From positions 1 to 36,902 of the forward strand of contig JAJPHY010000032.1 of assembly GCA_021325015.1 (NCBI GenBank): a stretch of DNA of 36,902 nucleotides, read 5' to 3'. The position numbers were made by a program, and so were the translations under genes. The DNA is from Actinomycetota bacterium (GTDB taxonomy: Bacteria; Actinomycetota; UBA4738; HRBIN12). The number at the start of each line of letters is the position of its first letter. The stretch's first letter is position 1. Under the pieces are notes generated by a model. It was not told the DNA's origin and made no database searches. It saw nothing but the letters and a program-made list of their open reading frames with translations. Shown here one piece after another: positions 25,407 to 27,636 of the stretch.

Positions 25407-26039
25407 ATGGCCGAGGACGCGCGGAAGGACGCTCGGGACCTCCACACGGCCGGCGCGGCCTACGACCCGACGACCGCGCTCGTGGTCGTCGACGTTCAGA
25501 ACGACTTCGCGGATCCGCGGGGCGCCCTCTACGTTCCCGGCGGGGAGGAGGTCGTTCCACTCGTCAACCGCGAGATCGACCGGGCGCTGGGCGCCGGCGC
25601 CCTCGTCGTCTGCACACAGGACTGGCATCCCGAGCGCACCCCGCACTTCCAGACGGACGGGGGAATCTGGCCGGTGCACTGCGTTGCCGGAACGTGGGGT
25701 GCCGAGCTGCATCCGGGCCTGCGGGCCGTCGCGGGTGAGCCGATCCGAAAGGGCTCGGGTGGGGAGGACGGCTACTCGGCCTTCAGCGTGCGCGACCCGA
25801 CCAGCGGGGCGACCGCTCCGACCCGCCTCGAGCGCGTGCTGCGGGAGGGCGGGGTCCGGCGGGTCGTCGTTGTCGGGCTCGCGACCGACTACTGCGTAGC
25901 CGAGACGGCGCTCGACGCCCGGAGACTGGGGTTCGAGGCCGTCGTGCTCACCGAGGCCGTCCGCGCCGTGAACCTGCAGCCCGGCGACGGCGATCGGGCG
26001 ATCGAGCGCATGCGCGCCGCCGGCGCGACGATCATCTAG
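25407..26039 (+). CDS. pncA: Nicotinamidase / isochorismatase-family hydrolase
   Basis: Probably deamidates nicotinamide to nicotinate for NAD salvage. The 210-residue protein has the catalytic Asp in LVVVDVQNDFADPRG, the metal site TQDWHPERTPHF (Asp and two His), a Lys in IRKGSGGEDGYSAF, and the nucleophile in VGLATDYCVAETALDARRLG. HPGLRAV and VVLTEAVRAV fit PncA. The first 20 residues are a hydrophilic extension. The ATG at 25407 follows GAGGAGGGG. A 6-bp hairpin that includes the stop codon separates it from the converging mutM. Confidence 0.9.
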   Translation: MAEDARKDARDLHTAGAAYDPTTALVVVDVQNDFADPRGALYVPGGEEVVPLVNREIDRALGAGALVVCTQDWHPERTPHFQTDGGIWPVHCVAGTWGAELHPGLRAVAGEPIRKGSGGEDGYSAFSVRDPTSGATAPTRLERVLREGGVRRVVVVGLATDYCVAETALDARRLGFEAVVLTEAVRAVNLQPGDGDRAIERMRAAGATII

Positions 26040-26069: not shown

Positions 26070-26912
26070 TCAGCTCTGGCACTGCGGGCAGTAGTAGGAG
26101 CTCCGTCCGGCGATCTTCACGCTCTGGATCGGCGTCCGGCATCGGCGACACGGCTGGCCCTCGCGGCCGTAGACCTTGAGCTCGGCCTGGAACTCCCCGG
26201 GCTTGCCGAACAGGTCGACGTACGCCTCGTCCTCCAGCGTGGTCCCCCGGTAGCGGATGGCCTCCTGCAGGACCTCCTGCAGGGCGCGGTACAGCCGCCG
26301 GACCTCCTGCGAGGAGAGCGAGTCCGACATCCGGTCGTGCCGGAGACCGGCCGCGAACAGCACCTCGTCCGAGTAGATGTTGCCGAGGCCGGAGATGAAC
26401 TTCTGGTCCATGAGGAGCGGCTTGAGCTTGGACGCGCGCTGGGCGAGCAGACCGCCGAACGTCTGCCAGGTGAACACGTGGTCGAGCGGATCGATCGCGA
26501 TGTGCTGCAGCTCCTTCACCTTGCCCAGCTCGTCGGCGGTGGTGACGAACATCTCGCCGAACGTCCTCGGGTCGACGAACCGGAGGTCGCCGCCCTGGTG
26601 GAAGGTCAGGACCACGTGCGTGTGCGGCGGGAGCGACTGTCGCTTGGTCCCTCGCAGGAACCGGCCGCTCATGCCGAAATGCACGACGAGCACGTCGCCG
26701 TTGTCTAGGTGCAGCAGCACGTACTTGCCGCGCCGCTCGGCCTTGGTGATCTTGCGGCCCTCGAGCCGGGAGGTGAACTCCTTTCGCTTGCCGTGACGAC
26801 GAACGACCCGCATCGCGTTGCGCGTCGGGCGGACCTCCGCGCTTTGGATCTTCCGTCCGACCACGTCCTTCTCGAGGTCCCGACGCATCACCTCGACTTC
26901 CGGAAGCTCCAC
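26070..26912 (-). CDS. mutM: Fpg/MutM-type DNA glycosylase lacking the N-terminal proline
   Basis: Formamidopyrimidine-DNA glycosylases remove oxidised purines such as 8-oxoguanine and cut the abasic site. The 280-residue protein matches the family: ELPEVEVMRRDLEKDVVGRK, RRGKYVLLHLDNG (Lys63, matching E. coli Lys57), VHFGMSGRFL, RFVDPRTFGEMFV, LLMDQKFISGLGNIYSDEVL and a C-terminal zinc finger (CRRCRTP then YYCPQCQ). Fpg normally begins Met-Pro-Glu-Leu-Pro-Glu, and Pro2 is the nucleophile. Here the GTG at 26912 is followed directly by GAG (Glu), and no upstream codon supplies a proline. GGGGAGGGG precedes the GTG. It sits 13 nt after rnc. Confidence 0.9.
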   Translation of the reverse strand: MELPEVEVMRRDLEKDVVGRKIQSAEVRPTRNAMRVVRRHGKRKEFTSRLEGRKITKAERRGKYVLLHLDNGDVLVVHFGMSGRFLRGTKRQSLPPHTHVVLTFHQGGDLRFVDPRTFGEMFVTTADELGKVKELQHIAIDPLDHVFTWQTFGGLLAQRASKLKPLLMDQKFISGLGNIYSDEVLFAAGLRHDRMSDSLSSQEVRRLYRALQEVLQEAIRYRGTTLEDEAYVDLFGKPGEFQAELKVYGREGQPCRRCRTPIQSVKIAGRSSYYCPQCQS

Positions 26913-26925
26913 CGACCCCTCCCCG

Positions 26926-27636
26926 TCAGCTCTTCACGGCACGCTCGGACAGCTTCAGGTAGGCCTCGTGTGCCGCCTGCTGCTCGGCCTCCTTCTTGGA
27001 TCGCCCGACGCCCGTGCCCCAGGCCCGACCCGCGAGGTGCACGGTCGCCGTGAACTCCTTCTCGTGGTCGGGACCGCGCTCCGTGATCCGGTACTCGGGC
27101 AGCGCGCGAAGGTCCTGCGACGCGAGCTCCTGGAGCATCGTCTTGAAGTCGCGCTCCCCCTCGCCCCGGACGTAGGCGATCATCCGAGGGCGGAACAGGC
27201 GCTCGATCAGCCCGCGCGCGACCTCGAGCCCGAGATCGAGGTAGATCGCCCCGAGCACGGCCTCGAGCGCGTCGGCCAGGATGCTCGCCTTGCCGCGGCC
27301 GCCGCTCATCTCCTCGCCCCTGCCCAGACGCACGTGATCGCCGAGGCCGAGGTCGCGCGCGACCTCGGCGAGGGCCCCCATGTTGACGATCGCGGCCCGG
27401 AGCTTGGCGAGCTCGCCCTCGGACATCTCCGGGAACTCGCGGTAGGCGAGGTCGGTCACCACGAGCCCGAGGACGGCGTCCCCCAGGAACTCGAGCCGCT
27501 CGTTGTTCACTGGCGTGCCCTGCTCGAACGCGTACGAGCGATGCGTGAGGGCTGCCTCGAGCAGTTCGGGGCGCGCGAAGCGAACGCCGAGCGTCCGCTC
27601 GAGGGTCGACGACGGCTCCGCGCCCGCGGCGCTCAC
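26926..27636 (-). CDS. rnc: Ribonuclease III
   Basis: Cuts double-stranded RNA in rRNA and mRNA processing. The 236-residue protein has [20 protein letters not shown], the signature [38 protein letters not shown] (second catalytic acid pair), and a C-terminal dsRNA-binding domain ([20 protein letters not shown], then [20 protein letters not shown]). Length is normal. The GTG at 27636 was chosen for GAGGAG just upstream and lies 16 nt after the rpmF stop; the open frame continuing upstream overlaps rpmF and is not coding. Confidence 0.96.

Follow-up and report, generated by a model that had tools for sequence, protein, structure and literature searches.

The window, that is, the whole stretch of 36,902 nucleotides that was analysed, carries on its minus strand the gene mutM (fpg), with rnc, encoding RNase III, lying directly upstream (Table 1). 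Convergent with mutM is a plus-strand open reading frame (25407-26039) which, given its motifs VVVDVQNDF and GLATDYCV, we take to resemble a nicotinamidase/isochorismatase. The N-terminal proline is regarded as the catalytic residue that defines MutM. In a normal Fpg the initiator methionine is removed by methionine aminopeptidase (MetAP), such that proline becomes residue 1 and stands directly before the glutamate which protonates O4'. The minus-strand frame of the window gene, by contrast, reads ...TGA AGA GCT GAC GGG GAG GGG TCG and then GTG GAG CTT CCG GAA GTC GAG..., i.e., the N-terminus is Met-Glu-Leu-Pro and the proline codon after the start is absent. A preliminary description of this DNA was correct, that is, in seeing GAG directly after GTG with no proline codon between, and also in giving the preceding codons as GGG-GAG-GGG-TCG, with no upstream start that would supply the proline. 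Indeed, an in-frame TGA is found at codon -8, and between it and the GTG there is no ATG, GTG, TTG or CTG.

Table 1. Features of the mutM locus, as positions in the window; residues are numbered from the initiator Met, with the numbering of Bst MutM in brackets.
Feature	Position	Strand	Remark
mutM/fpg coding sequence without Pro codon, 280 aa (VELPEVEVMRRDLEKD...PQCQS)	26070..26912	-	stop codon 26070-26072
GTG initiation codon; initiator Met in place of Pro1	26910..26912	-	GTG (20) or ATG (6) in 26/26 genomes
GAG, Glu2 (Bst Glu3)	26907..26909	-	invariant in 97/97 aligned sequences
Shine-Dalgarno-like GGGGAGGGG, directly upstream of GTG	26916..26924	-	relatives: G-rich purine stretch upstream
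In-frame TGA, codon -8, closing the frame to an earlier start	26934..26936	-	
Lys63 codon (Bst Lys60), retained	26724..26726	-	26/26
Asn178 codon (Bst Asn174), retained	26379..26381	-	mapped to Bst numbering
Arg270 codon (Bst Arg264, zinc finger), retained	26103..26105	-	mapped to Bst numbering
rnc (RNase III), directly upstream of mutM	26926..27636	-	start codon at the 27636 end likely; same linkage in relatives; rate yardstick

By domain content the protein is an Fpg, with Pfam domains Fapy_DNA_glyco, H2TH and zf-FPG_IleRS present, and with scores of 290 bits against the NCBIfam fpg profile (cut-off 203) and of 301 against PRK01103 (cut-off 212), both profiles matching from position 3, i.e., past Met-Pro. 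An AlphaFold2 model (mean pLDDT 94, and 95 over residues 1-10) displays the Fpg fold and finds as its best PDB match the MutM-oxoG complex 1r2y, with a TM-score of 0.89-0.92 at 37% identity. P2, E3, K60, N174 and R264 have been named as conserved across the entire Fpg family (PMC3188539), with Glu3, in the numbering of the MutM of Bacillus/Geobacillus stearothermophilus (Bst), being the residue which protonates the deoxyribose O4' (PMC4445063, PMC10164570). The window protein has that glutamate directly after position 1, along with the ELPEVE helix, and has as well the beta-hairpin lysine (Lys60), Asn174, Arg264, the void-filling Met77, Arg112 and Phe114, the H2TH domain and a zinc finger of four cysteines. 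Across the 26 orthologues of its order, described below, the void-filling Met and Arg are found in 26/26 and Phe in 24/26, Leu being found in the other 2. What is absent, in 26/26, is the N-terminal proline that removal of Met should expose. By descent and by profile the gene is thus a genuine MutM/Fpg orthologue that was passed on vertically, and the earlier statement that all other Fpg features are present agrees with domains, profile scores and catalytic residues alike. It does not resemble pseudo-glycosylases, which have lost several catalytic residues, as only the proline is missing here; nor is it of the NEIL3 type, in which Met is followed by Val and then removed, as GTG here is the start codon itself. 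Since it fails in one feature of the catalytic definition, the N-terminal proline, it should properly be named an Fpg/MutM homologue lacking Pro1, and not a canonical bifunctional Fpg.

The Pro-less MutM is not confined to the window but recurs throughout an uncultured order of Actinomycetota. The gene is present in 26 of the 27 genomes of this order that were searched, these being separate MAG assemblies, and in all 26 the start codon is followed directly by GAG or GAA. Among the relatives, identity to the window protein is 74-85%. The genomes span 19 genera and 3 families, with records that include HRbin12, KatS3mg013 (a contig of 1.4 Mb), UBA5176, UBA5182 and MAGs from soil and groundwater. 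The alignment of N-termini with orthologues that had been proposed thus finds Glu in the same place in every relative possessing the gene, which is far beyond chance. In six of the 26, furthermore, an in-frame stop (TAG or TAA) abuts the start codon. Searching 397 Actinomycetota genomes for the pattern start-Glu-Leu-Pro-Glu-Val-Glu returned the same 26 genomes plus three further hits, of which two are chance sites and one is the pseudo-MutM of a single genome of family f12 (below). A scan for MELPEVEV, which detects ATG starts only and is the sole basis for the distribution outside of Actinomycetota, gave no match outside the order that lacks the proline. Our searches of the open literature turned up no account of a MutM that naturally lacks the proline. 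As a separate observation, one genome carries, beside a complete mutM, a second Pro-less mutM start (L129; G026:C146:2-232) of 77 aa that is ended by the contig edge, i.e., either a duplicate or a product of mixed strains.

The most similar Pro-bearing MutM found is that of family f13, at 64-70% identity, where the mutM start is GTG-CCN-GAG in 4/4 genomes with a readable N-terminus. In a tree built without the trait column, a quick tree whose support is by SH-aLRT and not bootstrap, the Pro-less proteins of the order form one clade (SH-aLRT 99), and one loss therefore suffices. The alignment holds as well 44 Pro-bearing proteins, a count that in itself is no test because all of them were gathered by their Pro start. 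The deletion and its single origin are in this manner established at the level of sequence comparison, which places one loss of the proline codon in the ancestor at the base of the order. Of the possibilities raised by the preliminary description, loss of a codon in the genome is thus upheld. The simplest event would be an in-frame loss of CCN from between the start codon and GAG. Substitutions found in the Pro-less clade and not in its nearest Pro-bearing relatives, e.g., Phe79 for Leu, prove nothing. Separately, the MutM of a record titled Bifidobacterium breve (L052; CAMDCC010000267.1) groups with Acidimicrobiia MAGs, and its organism name looks wrong.

Retained in 26/26 are Glu2, Glu5, Lys63, His78, Met81, Arg116, Asn178, Tyr180, Glu183, Arg270 and the four zinc cysteines, sites which include, in Bst numbering, Glu3, Glu6, Lys60, His74, Met77, Arg112, Asn174, Tyr176, Arg264 and the zinc Cys. 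Close mutM pairs within the Pro-less clade have dN/dS ratios of 0.03-0.06, as simple Nei-Gojobori counts that are unreliable for distant pairs. The ratio of mutM to rnc distances is 0.93 in the Pro-less clade; for Pro-bearing lineages it is 0.87, and for f12 it is 0.99. Given this low dN/dS, and a pace of change equal to that of the neighbouring rnc, the Pro-less mutM is under purifying selection and not decaying. With the other catalytic residues kept as well, only the nucleophile is gone.

Family f12 presents, at this locus, a case in which the active site is truly lost, 33/35 of its genomes encoding an Fpg-like protein. In the 27 members that were aligned, the proline position is occupied by Leu, the active-site His, Met, Arg and Asn along with the zinc-finger Arg are gone, Lys is gone in most, and the zinc cysteines mostly remain; rnc is found in the same locus in 26/27. 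These proteins (L130-L159, e.g., L105:1501-2340) are full-length and conserved, with a Met-Leu-ELPEVEV start, and their closest pairs have dN/dS ratios of ~0.08-0.15, i.e., purifying selection. The rnc-linked f12 copy is a conserved pseudo-MutM, possibly with a non-catalytic role in DNA binding or as a scaffold. A further homologue, of family f5 (L031:1495-2337; G056), is partly decayed, with active-site Lys changed to R, Asn to D and Met to P and with the zinc-finger Arg gone. The N-terminal proline there is kept, and decay therefore does not have to begin with loss of the proline.

The window's genome (G000) carries one other Fpg-family gene, the only one found there besides the window mutM (L002:1453-2283, i.e., G000:C2:7318-8148, minus strand; MPELPEVQALDERL). 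Its product starts MPELPEVQ, thus keeping the proline, is without the Asn and the zinc-finger Arg of MutM (GIGRGY and ESHEVTYC) and falls under the NCBIfam fpg cut-off, and therefore would be a poor replacement; compensation by another canonical MutM in this genome was rejected on these grounds. Within the order, 21/27 genomes were found to have a paralogue of this type, and G001 carries in addition to these a fragment of 45 codons. In some relatives (G004 and G009) an additional Fpg-like gene with the proline occurs, such that compensation is possible in these, though not in general.

The reading that we prefer is of a working glycosylase whose nucleophile would be the alpha-amine of Met1 and whose AP lyase activity would be weak, our confidence in this being evenly balanced. 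We infer that, following deformylation, the initiator Met stays on the Pro-less protein because MetAP does not cut before Glu, its need for a non-bulky, uncharged second residue being described in PMC3154147. Both peptide deformylase and MetAP are encoded in the window's genome. Met1, being kept, would therefore take the seat of Pro1, exactly one residue before the catalytic Glu, as in the processed normal enzyme, with the register unchanged and a primary amine swapped for a secondary one. Oxidised purines most likely would still be excised: Glu2 would protonate O4', and C1' would be attacked by the free alpha-amine of Met1, giving a Schiff base. Cutting of the strand by AP lyase action would probably be slow or weak, leaving AP sites to an AP endonuclease. 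Nfo is encoded by the window's genome and by 15/27 genomes of the order; the window's genome also has a MutY-like protein, which is under the family cut-off in all 27.

The expectation that excision is kept while AP lyase is weak follows from precedents in which a primary amine stands at the N-terminus. In hNEIL1 P2G the primary amine of Gly2 is seen in the crystal covalently bound to C1', with residual activity kept (PMC10164570), and E. coli Fpg P2G and P2T reportedly retain 10% activity on Fapy-dG (as cited in PMC10164570). Nei2 P2A of M. smegmatis displays full 5-OHU excision with lyase at ~3%, and P2C is inactive both as lyase and on 5-OHU (PMC11323726). NEIL3, which employs a Val nucleophile that is exposed as Val2 only upon removal of Met, is described as essentially monofunctional, and V2P regains coupled cutting (PMC5727206). 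The fuller statement, of a natural glycosylase employing the alpha-amine of a retained initiator Met after a one-codon deletion that kept the register and became fixed across the order, we offer tentatively, with doubt slightly the heavier. Against use of the Met1 amine weigh that Met has a side chain of greater bulk than the N-terminal residues examined in the studies cited, and that most primary-amine mutants made in the laboratory are much weaker than Pro. The Pro-bearing paralogue of the window's genome could, in addition, cover some of the repair.

The preliminary description had offered three readings: that the enzyme employs a different nucleophile, that it is a binding protein, or that a codon went missing in the genome or the assembly. 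Loss in the assembly, or an error of binning, might be suspected of what are all draft assemblies, nearly all labelled as MAGs. The same start recurs, however, in separate assemblies from different groups across those 26 genomes, 19 genera and 3 families, some of the contigs being as long as 0.8 Mb and, in KatS3mg013, 1.4 Mb; independent assemblies thus refute the error, the chance of which is practically nil. Very improbable is that the protein has another N-terminus in the cell, whether by non-canonical upstream start, frameshift or processing, that would put Pro or Val at position 1. An internal GTG would indeed give Val, as in NEIL3, and in some relatives the frame is open upstream of the start. 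Nevertheless, six genomes have ATG at the start, where Val is impossible, the stops noted above abut the GTG or ATG in six, and upstream codons are not conserved. A Val nucleophile from an internal GTG was discarded on the first two of these grounds, and an alternative upstream start by the in-frame stops together with the lack of any conserved start.

More substantial, though still unlikely, is that the enzyme is a monofunctional glycosylase, with Glu2 and an activated water releasing the base, Met1 not becoming covalently bound, and AP endonucleases finishing repair. The full excision by Nei2 P2A with its residual lyase (PMC11323726), the character of NEIL3 (PMC5727206) and the occurrence of Nfo are all consistent with this. 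P2A still has a free N-terminal amine, however, and so is no proof that the amine is unneeded, and a register of one residue before Glu, conserved in 26/26, would not obviously be required by a hydrolytic enzyme. The binding protein of the preliminary description, that is, a non-catalytic, lesion- or DNA-binding pseudo-glycosylase, we judge to be distinctly improbable. The nucleophile is lost, the rnc-linked f12 orthologue did become a conserved pseudo-MutM, and most of the order has a Pro-bearing paralogue, but the active-site Lys, His, Met, Arg, Asn and Arg that the window clade keeps in 26/26 are missing from most or all of the f12 proteins, and the window's own paralogue would substitute poorly. 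With other catalytic residues invariant and selection strong, another nucleophile therefore is the best supported of the functional readings.

An order without the proline, in which the other active-site residues are preserved, lets nature itself test whether it is the glycosylase or the lyase step that the secondary amine serves, with the f12 pseudo-MutM as a paired case. Profile-based annotation, moreover, would label such proteins as 'bifunctional Fpg' though the lyase nucleophile is absent.

As compared with Bst MutM (1r2y, 1l1z), the window protein shares the fold, H2TH, zinc finger, Glu2, Lys, Asn, Arg and the void-filling Met/Arg/Phe, but lacks the N-terminal Pro, the initiator Met being there instead. 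With the f12 pseudo-MutM it has in common being an rnc-linked Fpg orthologue without Pro1, though f12 has Leu in that position and has lost the other catalytic residues. In vertebrate NEIL3, too, a primary amine replaces the secondary amine of Pro, but there it is exposed by removal of Met, whereas in the window MutM position 1 is the Met, which should stay, and the sequence is that of an Fpg and not of a NEIL3. Comparable, too, are hNEIL1 P2G, Fpg P2G and P2T, and Nei2 P2A, which likewise combine a primary-amine N-terminus with an otherwise intact Fpg/Nei active site; these, however, are engineered substitutions, while the window MutM is a natural deletion that is fixed across an order.
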